Assembly: GCA_022828145.1 (NCBI GenBank)
Contig: JAJEJA010000043.1
Coordinates: forward strand, 62,001 to 126,000
DNA: 64,000 nt
Direction: 5' to 3'
Source: Candidatus Poribacteria bacterium
Lineage (GTDB): Bacteria > Poribacteria > WGA-4E > WGA-3G
Positions 40,547-51,110 of this stretch are shown here, piece by piece; the stretch's first letter is position 1; every line of letters starts with the position of its first letter. The position numbers and the translations under genes were made by a program. The notes below the pieces were generated by a model. It worked only from the letters and a program-made list of their open reading frames with translations, searched no databases and was not told the DNA's origin.

Positions 40547-42052
40547 CTACTTTTCAAGTATTACTTCTAACCTACTTAAATCAGTTTCCAATACTGATTT
40601 ATCGTCACGATATATTTTCTGTCTGGATAGTACCTTGTCAACGTATATTTTACCTCTACTTAGAAGAGGCCCTTTTATGCTGACTCTGCCGGGTCCAACA
40701 TTATATGCCCCGATTGCTAAAGTCTGGTTATTGTGATACCTTTCTAATAGATAGTTGAAATATGTCAATCCTGCTTCAAGGTTTTTCTTTGCGTCAAATC
40801 TTTCATCAACCTTCCCATCAATGTTGGGTTTTGTTTTATTTGTGTAGTGTGGCACTTTCAACCCGTATTCTCTTGCAGTAGCAGGTAATATTTGCATTAA
40901 GCCACCGGCACCTGTTCTTGATACAGCAAGAGGATTGAATTTTGATTCCACATAAATTATTGCTAACATTAATTCGACAGAGATATTATGTTTTTCTGCA
41001 ATTTGTATACTTGCCTTTTGTGATGACTTTTGTTTAGGTTCGGTTTTATGGTGTGTTGTGTTGGTGGGTGTTTGATGAATAGATGTTTCTTTTGTGTATT
41101 CTTGCGTTGGTTCTCCAAAAGTAAAACCGAATGAGAGCAGATGTTTATGGTTTAGGTCTCCTTGATTAAGATAGGCATAATAGGTCTGCTTCCCCCATTT
41201 ATTCAATGAGAATCCCATACTCCATGAATGTGCATACTCACCTGAATCAAAAACGAAATGTGATCCGACGTTTGCGGAAAGTATACCTGTTATGAATTCT
41301 ACACTTGTGCCAAAACCTGGGGATGTGACATTATAGCATGCATGCCATTTAACTTGCTGAAGTGGTATAAGTGTTGTTCCGAATGCCAGTTGTGAGTTAA
41401 ACGTATTGAGGATAACACCGTTCTGATCTCGGATAGATACGCCACTAATATCTCGCAATTGCATACCTACCAGTGCATTTGGTGAAAGGGTTATTAATGC
41501 TCCAACGTCGTAGTTTTGTGCCCAAAGGCTATTCTCATAAGGTGCTCGACTAAAACCTGTACTCACACCGAGTTGTATGGCTCCGAACTTCCTTGCATAG
41601 GATAGCAAGGCTTGGTTGTATCCATATTCAAACGTCCCAATTGGATTGGAATTGTGGTCTATGAGGAATCGATCAGCGTTGTTGAAATCGAGGAGGTTAA
41701 TTCCGAATGTCCCAAGGACTTTAACAGGATAGGCGATAGACAGGGCTCCCTGAGAGAGGTCATAAATCAGGTTACCTCGGTCAAGTGATGCGAGTCCTGC
41801 TGGGTTCCAGAGTGGGCTTGTAGCATCATCTGCGCTGCTAATATAAGCTCTGCTTAGCCCGATTCCGCGCGTGCCGATTACAGGTCTCGGCTCGGGTATG
41901 CCGATGTTGGATTGATCATTTTTTGTTTCAACGAGCGTGGTACTTACACCTTGAGAATTGGTGAACAAGAGGAGCAAGATGATTATGCTTAGCCATCTAT
42001 AGTCATGGCATCTATTGTCACGGCAGATCAAGGTGGCGAGCTGGGTTTTCAC
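40547..42052 (-). CDS. Outer-membrane barrel (PorV/UPF0164-like) fused to SLT lytic transglycosylase
   Basis: About 501 aa from GTG 42052, with AAAGG upstream and a good signal segment (WLSIIILLLLFTNSQG). An in-frame start at 42154 would overlap the upstream gene much further. Residues ~30-300 look like the PorV/UPF0164 beta-barrel: GTRGIGLSRAYISSADDATSPLWNPAGLA, then alternating strands to HLLSFGFTFG. A Thr/Lys/Gln-rich linker follows. Residues ~345-480 are an SLT domain with catalytic Glu in AIIYVESKFNP (~369) and GAGGLMQILPATAREYGL, plus AYNVGPG. It would cleave peptidoglycan glycan strands from an outer-membrane anchor. It overlaps the M23 peptidase gene by 35 bases. Confidence 0.8.
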   Translation of the reverse strand: MKTQLATLICRDNRCHDYRWLSIIILLLLFTNSQGVSTTLVETKNDQSNIGIPEPRPVIGTRGIGLSRAYISSADDATSPLWNPAGLASLDRGNLIYDLSQGALSIAYPVKVLGTFGINLLDFNNADRFLIDHNSNPIGTFEYGYNQALLSYARKFGAIQLGVSTGFSRAPYENSLWAQNYDVGALITLSPNALVGMQLRDISGVSIRDQNGVILNTFNSQLAFGTTLIPLQQVKWHACYNVTSPGFGTSVEFITGILSANVGSHFVFDSGEYAHSWSMGFSLNKWGKQTYYAYLNQGDLNHKHLLSFGFTFGEPTQEYTKETSIHQTPTNTTHHKTEPKQKSSQKASIQIAEKHNISVELMLAIIYVESKFNPLAVSRTGAGGLMQILPATAREYGLKVPHYTNKTKPNIDGKVDERFDAKKNLEAGLTYFNYLLERYHNNQTLAIGAYNVGPGRVSIKGPLLSRGKIYVDKVLSRQKIYRDDKSVLETDLSRLEVILEK

Positions 42053-42830
42053 TTTTACCTTTGTATCGGATTTCAAAATGCAGATGGGGGCCAGTTGAGA
42101 CGCCAGTATTTCCGGATAGCCCGATAATTTCACCTTGTTTGACGATATCACCAACAGAAACTCGGAATCTTGACAAGTGTGCGTAGCATGTTGAGTAGTT
42201 ATCGGCGTGTTTTATTCTAACGATTCGCCCATATCCTCGTTCCCAGGCAGCATAAACGACTCTACCTGTTTTTGAAGCGTACACTCTTGTTCCTGTGGCA
42301 GCGCGGAAATCTATGCCTCTATGCATCAAGTACTTTCGGTTCACTGGGTGGTGCCGATATCCGTATCTTGAAGTTACATATAGCGGGATACGCAACGGTT
42401 TTGCGAAACCGTCAATCGTTTCACCTGGTATATATATTCTATCTCCTATTTTGAGACGTTTTGGATTAGAGATATTGTTGAGATGTTGGATTTTTTTCCA
42501 ATCTTTAATACCGTGACTCTGTGCGATACTATATAAGCTGTCTCCATCCGTTACAGTGTACCAAACGCCATCTGAATTCCCGTTTGAACTGGAGGGTTTT
42601 GATCCGATTGGTATCAATAATTTGTCTCCAATTTGCAGGTGATTCATAGATTTCAAACTGTTGGTTTGAGCAATAGATTTCATAGGTACTTCATATTTTC
42701 TGGCGATTTCAGATAAGGTTTCCCCTTTCTTTACTTGATGTAGCATTCCAATACATGAAGATGTCAATGATTCTGAGATGAAAATTGCGAGTAAGACGAA
42801 TATAGTGACTTGAATTTTGTTTTTCTTCAT
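42018..42830 (-). CDS. LysM-containing M23 metallopeptidase
   Basis: 270 aa with an N-terminal signal. Two LysM domains (HQVKKGETLSEIARKYEV at 31-75; YTVTDGDSLYSIAQSHGI at ~91-135) bind peptidoglycan. The M23 domain follows, with HRGIDF, HLHFEI and the surrounding G-x-x-x-G turns. The zinc ligands His-x3-Asp and His-x-His are present, so it may be a working endopeptidase rather than a pure NlpD/EnvC-type activator. Translationally coupled to the transglycosylase fusion, so the two probably remodel the wall together. Confidence 0.92.
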   Translation of the reverse strand: MKKNKIQVTIFVLLAIFISESLTSSCIGMLHQVKKGETLSEIARKYEVPMKSIAQTNSLKSMNHLQIGDKLLIPIGSKPSSSNGNSDGVWYTVTDGDSLYSIAQSHGIKDWKKIQHLNNISNPKRLKIGDRIYIPGETIDGFAKPLRIPLYVTSRYGYRHHPVNRKYLMHRGIDFRAATGTRVYASKTGRVVYAAWERGYGRIVRIKHADNYSTCYAHLSRFRVSVGDIVKQGEIIGLSGNTGVSTGPHLHFEIRYKGKSENPARHLDLP

Positions 42831-44735: not shown

Positions 44736-45593
44736 TTATGACCAGACATATATTTCGTTATCGTCGGGTGAATATCCGATGAATACTGCTAATACTATCC
44801 TTGCTCGCGTGCCTTTGACAGGGGGCACCTCGTGGATACACCGTGTATTGAAAAAGTAAAGGTCCCCTTGTTGCAAGTTGACTCGGTAGTGTTCTATTTT
44901 GTTTTTGCTGGCATACTTGTCAAAGGTCTCTTCTGCAATATAGGGTTGAATATTTTCTGACCAGAGACATTTATGCAGTATTGCTTGTGTTGCTTCTCCA
45001 GTTTCATCTGCATTTTGAATGCATAGTACACCTGCGAACTGATGTTCGAATCGATAGACAGCGTAATCTGTGCGTTGTTCGCGATATTTCACACTATCTA
45101 TGTGGGGTTTATAGCTATGCGTTTCGTAATGGACACGAAATATTGCTGGTCCGTATAGAGAACCATCAGGTTCGCGAGCAACCTGGACATCCTTACCAGG
45201 GGAAAGTGCGGATAAAGATTGATAGATCAGGTCTATAGGATTGTCAAAACCATCGAACAGAAATTGGAAAAGATGGTGGGTCGTCTCAGCGTGTGCTAAA
45301 AAGCGTGTTTTGTTGTCACCGCGATTGCCAAGACTTGTTCCGATGTCAATCCGCGTGCGTTTGTCGGCAGAATTCGTGTCTGCTTCGTCTCTCATCAACC
45401 CCATATTTGTAAATCTATTGATAAGACCTTGACACTGTTCGGGTGAATATACGTTCCGCAATATGATTGCGGGTATTTCTGCCTGTGATAAGGAATAAAT
45501 TGGGTTCTGATAGTTTTTGAGAACGGTTTTTAGATTAGGTTCTGCGGGCAGCCAATCTGTTTGAGCTAAACCGTGTATGCCAAATTTTCTCAT
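44736..45593 (-). CDS. 2-oxoglutarate/Fe(II)-dependent oxygenase
   Basis: 285 aa. Jelly-roll oxygenase with H164 and D166 (KPHIDS), distal H254 (RCIHEVPPV) and Arg 263/265 (GTRARIVLAVF) for 2-oxoglutarate. It has a ~130-residue N-terminal part, LILRNVYSPEQC-like at its start. Its ATG overlaps the aspartate kinase stop (ATGA), so the two are coupled in translation. It might hydroxylate an amino acid or a peptide; that is inference. Confidence 0.82.
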   Translation of the reverse strand: MRKFGIHGLAQTDWLPAEPNLKTVLKNYQNPIYSLSQAEIPAIILRNVYSPEQCQGLINRFTNMGLMRDEADTNSADKRTRIDIGTSLGNRGDNKTRFLAHAETTHHLFQFLFDGFDNPIDLIYQSLSALSPGKDVQVAREPDGSLYGPAIFRVHYETHSYKPHIDSVKYREQRTDYAVYRFEHQFAGVLCIQNADETGEATQAILHKCLWSENIQPYIAEETFDKYASKNKIEHYRVNLQQGDLYFFNTRCIHEVPPVKGTRARIVLAVFIGYSPDDNEIYVWS

Positions 45594-47198: not shown

Positions 47199-50100
47199 TT
47201 AGAAGAAGGATCTACCGAGTGAATTGCCGGTGCCGAATGCATTATACGGAACACCTGCTGGTAGGGTGTGAAGTCCCCATGTTTCAGTTGTTGCATCGTA
47301 ACCGATACCCGCTGAGACTGCAGGCTCGCCTATTAAGTTGACCTGGAATGTGAAATCTTGCCTGACATTGTCAAACGGGGGGTCCCGTTTAATGCCGACA
47401 CGACTCCAAGATATGCGTAAATTCCAATCGTGTAAATTTCGGTTTATACTGATGCGCTGTGAATAAAACTGACGTTCTATCGGGTAATAGATGAGACTGA
47501 AATCGAACTCCAGATCTTTGCTGAATCGGTATCGTCCGTTGGCAGTCATTGAACGAGAAGCACGAATTGAGGTATGTCGTTTACTAAAAGAATTACCTAA
47601 GCTCACGTTCCAACTTTTACGTGTATATCTGATATTCGTCCTTATCCCGACCATTTTAAATTGTTCCCCATCATCGGGATGTGGATTGGGGTCATGGGTA
47701 AGTCGAACTGTCATATTCAGATTACGACTGGGGAGTGGGACGATGGTAAAATCACTTTCTATAGGTTCGTATTTGCGTCTATAGAGTGCTTCAAATTCTG
47801 TGAAATCTGCAGTGAGTCGTGTATCAAAATGGAATATGCGATGTGCCGATTGACTACGTCTGGTTTTTATTTCGATGTTTGTGTTAAAGTTGTAGGTTAG
47901 CCTTTTGCGCTCAAAGAAATAGGTGCTTGGACCAAATGGATAAAGATTTTCGTTTGCATCAATGGGTGGCTGGTAATCAAAAGTCAATGAAGATTGCAGT
48001 TCATGCCGTAATTTTCTGACACTGGGAATAAATCTGGGACTGTATATTCGGAACAGTGTATTCGTTGCTTGGGTTCTGATGCTATAAACACCGCGTATGA
48101 TGTTTCTGTTTTTCTCTTGGTCTTTTGCATGCCATATTACGTTAGTATTCAAGTTTGCACTTATTTTGAGTTCTCGGAGCGGTGTTATGAATAAGCTCGA
48201 TTGTTTACGTAGGTCAAATCCTACATCCATAGATTGTAGGAATATGTTCTTTTCGTCTTCCCTAAATTTGTTCCGGTATGTTTGTCTATAGAAGTTGCCG
48301 AACTCAATATCCATATCGAAGCTGGTGTCTTCCAGTGTAGGAATTGCGAAAACTGAGAGGAATGGTATATCTGTTTTTGCTTTTTCCGATATGCTCACTA
48401 AACCGTCATTGATATTCTCAAAGAGTGGTAGTCTACTGAATCGCATGCGGGAAAAGTTCAGCGTTAATTGCGGCAGTTTTTGTAGTGCGGTATTGTTCTC
48501 ATCTGAGAAGTCATGCACATGTCTGACCTCAAGTCTACCGGTAAAATCCCCGATGGTTTCTCGTGAGAAGCGTAGGTTTCCATCTTCATCAATGTCTTTA
48601 TCACTTGCTGCAGAAAATGCTGCGCCGTAAGTGATGATTCCAAATGAATTGATTGAGGATTCATTGGGTAGTTTTAATTCTTCTCTGTAATGTTCAGCGC
48701 GCCATGCAGTCCGTCCTACAAAACTAATCGGCCGTCGCCCGTCTTTCTTACTATCCCAGGGTGTGAAGAAGGATTGTCTATGTCCCCACCGCATATTCCA
48801 CCGTCTGCCGATTCGTGTAGCATCCTGCCTGCTGAAGGAGTATTCGTCTGCCCCGTATAGATAGATATCTCCGTAATAGCTGCGTTTTCGGTTAACTTTT
48901 AGGATATGATAGGACTCTTTTGTATCAATTAATCTGCTATATTCTCCTGCGTAGAGACTTTGTGCTTCAGAAGCGACCTGTCGGTGGTCTTCCCATCTTC
49001 CACGGAATCCGTGTTTTCTATAGACTTCTATTTTCTCTTCTTCCTCTTCTCCGATTTCCGTTTCATCCGTATTTTCTTCAGTTTCTGAAGGTTGATCTGA
49101 TTTATCAATTGTATCATCCTGTTGTTCAACCTGTAACGGGTTATCATCTTCTTTAGTCTCTGCGGCTATATCTTCATCATTATCAGATGAATCCGTTGTT
49201 GTTTCATCCGTAGTTTTTTCAGTTTTTTCAGAATCTTCATAAGTAATGCTTTGTTCCTCGCCGTTCAAAGTAGGCTGTATCGGTTTTTTTTCTTGTTCGT
49301 TTTCTTGAACCTTGTCTGTGTCGGTAGTCGTTTCCTTTTCACTGGGAGTTGCCAATACCTCAGCTTGGAAGGTTTCCCATTCAGCTTCAAATCCTTCTGC
49401 CAGTTGTTCAAACGTTGGTGTTTCGTCTTTTTTGATGAGTTGGAAGATATAGAGTCCTTCAGGTGAAAAAACAGGATTTCGTTCAGTAATATCTCCTGGT
49501 TTCTGTAATCTTCTGACAGAATACTGCCATCCTGAAGCCATTTCGTTTAGTGGTAGACCTTTGCCTTCATTGATTTCAGCCAGTTCTGCTTCGGGGAATT
49601 CTTCAGCGAGTTTTTCGAATGTTTCACCAGCAATTGCGCGTTTATGGATATCCGTTGCGATCTCTCTGACCTTCTGTTGTGTTTCATTGCTTGCGGTGAC
49701 TGCAATGTCGATACGGGATAGTCTTATCTCCTTTTCTCCATAGACATTGAGTATTCGTTCTACCTTTAAGATATGAAATGCGGTATCTGTTCTTAGAACA
49801 GAGCTGATTTCTCCCTCTTTGAGGGAGAATGCGGCTTTATCTAAGATTGGGTCAAGGATTGGTTTACCTTCCTGATTCGTTTCGCCTTGTGTCAGGAATC
49901 CCATATCGCCGCCTTCGTATCGTGTATCCGTGTGGTCAGATTCTCTCTGTGCGATTTCAGAGAACGTAGCGTTTTCTTCATTAAGTTGTTGGTGTATTTT
50001 ATCTGCTTCCTCTTTTGCTCTATTTGCATCTTCCTCTGTAATCTGATACTCCAGAAAAAGTTGTTTTAGCCAGTAGCGATCATAATCACCTTCAAGTTGC

Positions 50101-51110
50101 TCGTGCAGCATTTCTGCTTTTTCTTTTAGTTTCGTGCGTTGTGCGGGTGTTGCGTCGGGAGGAATTGGAATATATATTTCTCTAAACTTTGTATCATTGA
50201 ACCTATATTTCCCCTCAAAACCGAAACCTTGTCCTCTCCGTGCGCTTCTATCGTATAGGATTGCAGCATCATATCGTCTCTGTCGTAAGAAAGGATATAT
50301 GATGCTGATATTTGGACCTTGGTAACTATCTGTGCCGATTCTCACAACAATTTTTGCGACTTTATCTTTGCGTAGATCGCGTCGGATTGCGGGGAAATAG
50401 AAAAGCGGAATACCCCCGATTTTCATGACGATATTCTTTGCTATCATCTCCTGATTCATTTTGATAATGACTTCGGACACACTGAAATAGTAGTGGGGGT
50501 ATTTGAGGGAGCAGGTTGTCAGGGAGCCGCTTCGGATATACGATTTTTTATCCTCTATTTTGAAGATTTCGCTTCCCCCGAAGTACCAGGGGTCGCTAAA
50601 AGTAAATCCATTTCTTGCAATACCTTTCTTCGTATCAAGGTTGAAGACGAGTTCATCGGAGAATGTCTCCTCTTCACCGACTTTTAGGTAAACGTTGCCA
50701 GCTGCGCGCATTAGGTTCTCATTGAAATCTGCCCATACGTTATCTGCTCGTAACGTCACATTATCATATTTGATAAGTGCATCACCGTGAATGCGTACGA
50801 TATTGTCCAGAATAATTACCTCATCCCCATCACCAATGACTGTATCAGGTTCAGGTGCCATAGTCTCAGGGTCTAATACCTGTTTAGGCTTTGTTACGGA
50901 TTGCGTTTCATTCGTATCACCGTTTTCGGATGATTCTTGTGAAGGTGTTTCTGGGGTCTGTGCATATAATGACCGTATCGGTAATAACAAGCAGGAGAGA
51001 GAGACAATGAGAATAGAAAACAGATACAACAACCTGTGTATAGGCTGTTTATTCTTGGATTTAATGTTATGCCAAAGAGTTTGCAATAACGTGTTCTTAT
51101 GTTGGCTCAT
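47199..51110 (-). CDS. lptD: LptD/OstA outer-membrane protein with embedded parvulin-like segments
   Basis: 1303 aa, about 1.7 times E. coli LptD. A signal segment lies at 28-50. Residues ~85-235 form the OstA periplasmic domain (VRIHGDALIKYDNVTLRADN). GGIPLFYFPAIRR (~232-244) matches the LptD transition into the barrel. Then ~345-455 is a PpiC-type parvulin (FSEIAQRESD, GGDMGFLTQGE, AAFSLKEGEISSVLR, AFHILKVERI); ~463-562 is a weaker second copy. An acidic Glu/Asp/Thr linker spans 590-695, and ~698-742 is a third half-copy (LYAGEYSRL, SYHILKVNRK). The barrel resumes from ~745 and ends SLGRSFF. The first parvulin His is missing, so chaperone rather than isomerase activity is likelier. Predicted LPS inserter carrying its own folding helper. 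Confidence 0.82.
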   Translation of the reverse strand: MSQHKNTLLQTLWHNIKSKNKQPIHRLLYLFSILIVSLSCLLLPIRSLYAQTPETPSQESSENGDTNETQSVTKPKQVLDPETMAPEPDTVIGDGDEVIILDNIVRIHGDALIKYDNVTLRADNVWADFNENLMRAAGNVYLKVGEEETFSDELVFNLDTKKGIARNGFTFSDPWYFGGSEIFKIEDKKSYIRSGSLTTCSLKYPHYYFSVSEVIIKMNQEMIAKNIVMKIGGIPLFYFPAIRRDLRKDKVAKIVVRIGTDSYQGPNISIIYPFLRQRRYDAAILYDRSARRGQGFGFEGKYRFNDTKFREIYIPIPPDATPAQRTKLKEKAEMLHEQLEGDYDRYWLKQLFLEYQITEEDANRAKEEADKIHQQLNEENATFSEIAQRESDHTDTRYEGGDMGFLTQGETNQEGKPILDPILDKAAFSLKEGEISSVLRTDTAFHILKVERILNVYGEKEIRLSRIDIAVTASNETQQKVREIATDIHKRAIAGETFEKLAEEFPEAELAEINEGKGLPLNEMASGWQYSVRRLQKPGDITERNPVFSPEGLYIFQLIKKDETPTFEQLAEGFEAEWETFQAEVLATPSEKETTTDTDKVQENEQEKKPIQPTLNGEEQSITYEDSEKTEKTTDETTTDSSDNDEDIAAETKEDDNPLQVEQQDDTIDKSDQPSETEENTDETEIGEEEEEKIEVYRKHGFRGRWEDHRQVASEAQSLYAGEYSRLIDTKESYHILKVNRKRSYYGDIYLYGADEYSFSRQDATRIGRRWNMRWGHRQSFFTPWDSKKDGRRPISFVGRTAWRAEHYREELKLPNESSINSFGIITYGAAFSAASDKDIDEDGNLRFSRETIGDFTGRLEVRHVHDFSDENNTALQKLPQLTLNFSRMRFSRLPLFENINDGLVSISEKAKTDIPFLSVFAIPTLEDTSFDMDIEFGNFYRQTYRNKFREDEKNIFLQSMDVGFDLRKQSSLFITPLRELKISANLNTNVIWHAKDQEKNRNIIRGVYSIRTQATNTLFRIYSPRFIPSVRKLRHELQSSLTFDYQPPIDANENLYPFGPSTYFFERKRLTYNFNTNIEIKTRRSQSAHRIFHFDTRLTADFTEFEALYRRKYEPIESDFTIVPLPSRNLNMTVRLTHDPNPHPDDGEQFKMVGIRTNIRYTRKSWNVSLGNSFSKRHTSIRASRSMTANGRYRFSKDLEFDFSLIYYPIERQFYSQRISINRNLHDWNLRISWSRVGIKRDPPFDNVRQDFTFQVNLIGEPAVSAGIGYDATTETWGLHTLPAGVPYNAFGTGNSLGRSFF

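Follow-up and report, generated by a model that had tools for sequence, protein, structure and literature searches.

Can a lytic transglycosylase be held at the outer membrane by a beta-barrel that forms part of its own chain, and what would such a protein do there? The question is raised by one gene in the window, the 64,000-nucleotide stretch of Candidatus Poribacteria DNA that was analyzed here and to which all positions refer unless a locus handle is given. Enzymes that cut the wall endanger the cell, and their control is largely a matter of the place where they are held. The outer-membrane lytic transglycosylases of E. coli, for example, are held by lipid. An excerpt of PMC10139938 describes Slt70 as soluble, MltA-F as outer-membrane-bound, and MltG as inner-membrane-bound. 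Relative to these E. coli enzymes, the fusion described below features a beta-barrel that precedes the enzyme, and such an anchor would add another way of holding a wall-cutting activity.

Architecture of the barrel-transglycosylase gene

The gene occupies 40547-42052 on the minus strand and encodes 501 amino acids from a GTG start in a single open frame; neither a stop nor a frame error separates the barrel half from the SLT half. The same one-frame arrangement recurs in 79 of the 84 Poribacterial genomes, so the fusion is beyond chance, and the initial annotation was right to treat the two halves as a single protein. A frame error or a pair of separate genes is ruled out by the open frame together with this recurrence. 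In residue order, the chain comprises a signal-like N-terminus, a FadL/PorV-type barrel, a short disordered linker, and a family-1 SLT domain.

The start codon may be either GTG 42052 or TTG 42031; a predicted Shine-Dalgarno-like AAAGG (42058-42062, minus strand) lies 5 nt ahead of the former, inside the adjacent M23 gene. Residues 1-37 (41942-42052, minus strand) read as a signal-like segment with an LSIIILLLLF core, which is poorly conserved in alignment A1 (28 fusions, picked for spread out of 57 fusion loci). Visual inspection of the gene revealed no lipobox cysteine, and no cysteine is conserved in the N-terminal columns of A1; on this feature, the fusion would fall outside the lipid-anchored Mlt enzymes. 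The linker at residues 316-345 (41018-41107, minus strand) has low pLDDT in the AlphaFold model, and its length varies from 13 to 101 residues across the 28 fusions (alignment columns 399-536).

The initial annotation had described the N-terminal part as a PorV/UPF0164-type barrel. The fold holds up in the model, in which residues 59-315 (41108-41878, minus strand) form a FadL/PorV-type barrel; the UPF0164 label is too narrow, as PF03687 hit a single one of the 28 barrels (E 0.11) and gave no match to the barrel of the window even with E allowed up to 1. Profile matches to related families are weak throughout. The NCBIfam PorV/PorQ family model (PorV_fam, NF033709) matches the N-terminal part at E 5.2e-9, and because its 36.1 bits lie below the cut-off of 90, we term the barrel PorV-like rather than a member of the family. 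Pfam FadL-type (Toluene_X) matches occur in 11 of 28 barrels with a best E of 0.0016, and a barrel-profile search of PDB sequences returned PorV (6h3i_F) as its top, weak match (E 0.022). Within the sequence WNPAGLA lies an NPA motif, N83-P84-A85 (41798-41806, minus strand); across the 28 fusions, N83 is invariant and P84 is at least 90% conserved.

The AlphaFold model of the full chain covers residues 36-501 and was made with 32 rows, only 3 of them covering the barrel. Its mean pLDDT is 69; most SLT blocks exceed 90, whereas most barrel blocks lie at 58-82 and one barrel stretch falls below 50. It features a short helix at WNPAGLA, an all-beta N-terminal part, a disordered linker, and a helical SLT domain. 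With its three barrel rows, the model fits a 14-strand FadL/PorV fold with an N-terminal hatch (about 14 strands by hand count of DSSP elements). Foldseek returned transglycosylases, then lower-ranked porins (E about 3e-4 and up). By VIA-align, the barrel matches TodX (Z 16.2), the FadL homologue 3dwo (Z 15.7), and PorV (8gl6_F, Z 15.1; 6h3i_F, Z 14.5) over about model residues 25-280, equivalent to protein residues 60-315, with about 215-225 residues aligned at 3.4-3.9 A; a Porphyromonas gingivalis BAM-complex chain follows at Z 13.8. FadL structures altered at NPA (N33A, P34A, and delta NPA) are also among the structural matches. A model of the barrel alone, likewise built from three rows, reached a mean pLDDT of 44.2 and, being poor, was left out of the fold search. 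The barrel identity draws jointly on the one full-chain model of middling confidence, the weak profile matches, and the conserved NPA motif.

FadL-family barrels have 14 strands according to an excerpt of PMC12611786, and the 14-stranded FadL/TodX and PorV/BamG barrels share with the fusion both the N-terminal NPA motif region and the barrel fold. The fusion differs from them in its short barrel (about 257 residues), its appended enzyme, and sequence scores below the family cut-offs.

In the C-terminal half, Pfam PF01464 matches residues 348-458 (40679-41011, minus strand) at E 2.1e-27, scoring 95.4 bits where the cut-off is 21.3, and a conserved tail extends to about residue 495. The SLT domain and catalytic glutamate of the initial annotation are thus both present, over about 150 residues rather than the roughly 135 first given. 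Alignment to 1qsa places E369 (40946-40948, minus strand) opposite E478, the catalytic residue of Slt70. E369 is invariant in 28 of 28 fusions, as are S370, S378, G384, L385, Q387, and Y450, and the GLMQ and AYN motifs around the catalytic site are retained in all or nearly all of the 28. The nearest solved sequences are MltD, Slt70, MltC, and LtgA-type enzymes, and the best VIA-align matches over the domain are 5mpq (Z 15.8) and MltF (Z 15.7). Structures of LtgA, Slt, MltF, MltC, and MltD match at Z 13.6-15.8 and share the SLT fold and catalytic glutamate. A profile score above the cut-off, the predicted catalytic glutamate, and the SLT motifs all fit a family-1 lytic transglycosylase.

Distribution and descent of the fusion

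Poribacteria are a largely uncultured bacterial phylum, and the fusion is near-universal among them. The 79 genomes with barrel and SLT in one frame (hand count) comprise 78 recovered in one search, by a span or two same-frame pieces, and one (G049) recovered by another. A profile search, which scored at most four candidates per genome and displayed matches at E <= 1e-38, yields the same 79, with 78 single spans and one genome (G039) represented by two pieces of one frame. Among the other five, G057 carries barrel and SLT in two overlapping frames, read as a frameshift; G058 has the halves on two contigs; in G064, a contig of 4224 bases carries the SLT end alone, at its edge; and the SLT of G060 is cut by a contig end and groups with fusion SLTs in the tree. 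In G059, we found no fusion, only a distant SLT and separate barrels.

Elsewhere, no fusion was found among the genomes searched. In that profile search, none of 302 genomes outside the phylum showed one among the matches at E <= 1e-38; G256 alone passed 1e-38, with SLT-only matches. In 80 genomes of a Krumholzibacteriota-type phylum, reached through loci L131 (titled Krumholzibacteriota) and L095, none of the matches listed, best first, spans both parts, although that phylum does have SLT proteins as well as PorV-like barrels. An SLT-motif scan of wider contigs found a barrel in 2 of the 80 loci kept, both in Poribacteria, and none in the other 78; it is a weak test of rarity because SLT motifs drove it and the matches considered were limited in number. 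When viral contigs were compared with the barrel alignment, none of the 47 pattern matches was a relative. PorV barrels are abundant in Bacteroidota, and these searches outside the phylum had other centers. In a surface-level search of the literature on such fusions and on Poribacterial walls and secretion, we recognized no description of a barrel-transglycosylase fusion. Each part is already known in kind, and it is the combination, near-universal in one phylum, that we did not recognize in the literature searched. The fusion may also offer a genetic handle on the envelope of these bacteria.

The two halves appear to share one history. Their distances correlate across the fusions (r 0.87 over 378 pairs, which are not independent), and a tree of 58 SLT domains places all fusion SLTs in one clade (95/98; the bootstrap is unsettled and the root is a midpoint). 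Because the half distances correlate and the fusion SLTs form one clade, the data fit one old fusion that would have been inherited vertically. Between the window gene and its relative at L009, dN/dS is 0.04 for the barrel and 0.24 for the SLT domain, and it reaches 2.8 in the signal region of 40 codons; comparisons with more distant relatives come close to synonymous saturation. Three further sequences fall in the clade: the SLT of G060 that a contig end cuts, the fragment from G057, and one TPR-SLT protein from G041. The last of these (L152 1306-3408, G041:C160) has an SLT domain that nests inside the fusion clade, which suggests a copy whose barrel was lost and which is possibly a new fusion.

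The M23 neighbor and a proposed role at the wall

Directly upstream on the minus strand, at 42018-42830, lies a gene for a metallopeptidase with two LysM stretches and an M23 domain (Pfam, 127.6 bits) that carries the zinc-site patterns H-x-GID and GPHLHF. The coupling to a LysM/M23 endopeptidase in the initial annotation is borne out by this neighbor and by the recurrence of such a gene immediately upstream, in the same orientation, at 49 of the 57 fusion loci, where both simple zinc-site patterns occur in 45 of the 49 M23 frames. With GTG 42052 as the start, the fusion and the M23 gene share 35 nt, and this overlap, together with the AAAGG five bases ahead of that GTG, suggests coupled translation. 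The pair would not be obligatory, since no upstream M23 gene was found in 8 of 57 loci (L049, L052, L058 to L062, and L068; for L058, just 1164 upstream bases were available). NlpD, MepM, ActS, and DipM share the LysM and M23 domains and the zinc-site patterns with the neighbor, which differs in that it reaches the cut-off of none of these named models and is paired with a barrel-SLT gene. A two-enzyme set for cutting the wall is plausible from this gene order.

We regard it as likely that the fusion is a periplasmic lytic transglycosylase anchored by an outer-membrane barrel, acting with the M23 endopeptidase on the wall. The course that we infer for it, from export, insertion, and topology to activity, partnership, and biological role, would run as follows. 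The chain would be exported, and the FadL/PorV-type barrel, judged by its fold, would insert in the outer membrane. A 14-stranded barrel has both of its ends on the periplasmic side, so the SLT domain at the C-terminus would lie there, hanging from its flexible linker toward the peptidoglycan, so that by analogy the enzyme would face the wall from the outer membrane. There, E369 would cut the MurNAc-GlcNAc bond to leave 1,6-anhydro ends, as in its family; the LysM/M23 endopeptidase, probably made from the same transcript, would cleave the cross-links of that wall; and the pair would together remodel it. OmpA consists of a barrel and a periplasmic wall-directed domain. The fusion, with its predicted topology, would share this layout with an enzyme as its second part, and would differ from OmpA in its barrel type, with 14 strands where OmpA has 8, and in carrying an enzyme in place of the binding domain.

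Sister proteins and competing readings

Related barrels in the host genome bear on this topology. It has about 12 other PorV-like barrel loci (hand count), three SLT proteins over cut-off, and five OmpA-domain (PF00691) matches over cut-off. One barrel protein of 652 amino acids (L149 2086-4041, G000:C123) has Ig-like segments and terminates in a SPOR domain (45 bits), and in G043 a PorV-like barrel (L161 1-1983) likewise ends in SPOR (23.6 bits). SPOR domains bind peptidoglycan, and the SPOR tails of these sisters argue for a periplasmic C-terminus on such barrels. An excerpt of PMC12611786 describes BamG as a FadL-family barrel whose periplasmic C-tail touches BamD. PorV/FadL-type barrels may be used as platforms for periplasmic domains. 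In two further PorV-like barrels (L150 1179-3392 and L151 813-2936), the long C-terminal part belongs to no Pfam family of its own; an FGDCDDS stretch looks transglutaminase-like by eye.

The host genome also encodes a SprA-like frame of 2040 amino acids (L165 54-6176, G000:C39; TIGR04189, E 9.6e-44, 149 bits against a cut-off of 200). A type IX-like translocon in Poribacteria is possible, and because this frame exists, so is a link between it and the fusion. In one extension, which we consider doubtful, PorV-type barrels would be exchangeable outer-membrane platforms bearing SLT or SPOR, of which the SLT version opens peptidoglycan for the SprA-like secretion machine. If true, a secretion-linked transglycosylase would be built into the outer-membrane barrel itself.

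A related idea is that the barrel partners an outer-membrane machine, PorV-like with a SprA-like translocon or BamG-like, while its SLT tail clears peptidoglycan. The structural matches to type IX PorV and the P. gingivalis BAM-complex chain, with the SprA-like frame itself, speak for such a partnership. However, TodX and FadL rank equal to or above PorV, the SprA-like gene lies on a different contig and scores below its cut-off, and the partner might equally be a barrel from any of the other loci. The close neighbors of the fusion, moreover, look like the M23 gene and metabolic genes (the downstream ones appear metabolic from their translations) rather than secretion genes. We accordingly judge this partnership improbable.

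That the SLT domain mainly tethers or senses the wall, cutting little or nothing and joining outer membrane to peptidoglycan in the manner of OmpA, would agree with the OmpA-style layout and with the barrel-SPOR protein of the same genome, in which wall-binding tails are used on these barrels. This is unlikely given that E369 and Q387 are invariant, that the GLMQ and AYN motifs are so widely kept, and that the SLT dN/dS against L009 stays low; the five OmpA-domain matches could, in addition, account for tethering. Muropeptides are not hydrophobic. Fusion of enzyme and channel would suit a pore that imports or releases the anhydro-muropeptides made by its own SLT tail, but although FadL-family barrels include transport channels, their ligands are hydrophobic in an excerpt of PMC12611786, which leaves this most improbable.

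Two other genes of the window may be recorded beside the barrel-anchored transglycosylase. At 44736-45593 (minus strand), a WelO5-type halogenase-like 2OG-Fe(II) oxygenase (PF22814, 100.6 bits) adjoins a frame whose translation reads as aspartokinase-like. At 47199-51110 (minus strand), a frame of 1303 amino acids reads as LptD/OstA-like, with no LptD Pfam match at E 0.01; two internal stretches match PPIC-type rotamases (PF00639, E 5.9e-30), and the frame perhaps encodes an outer-membrane barrel protein into which a folding helper has been fused.
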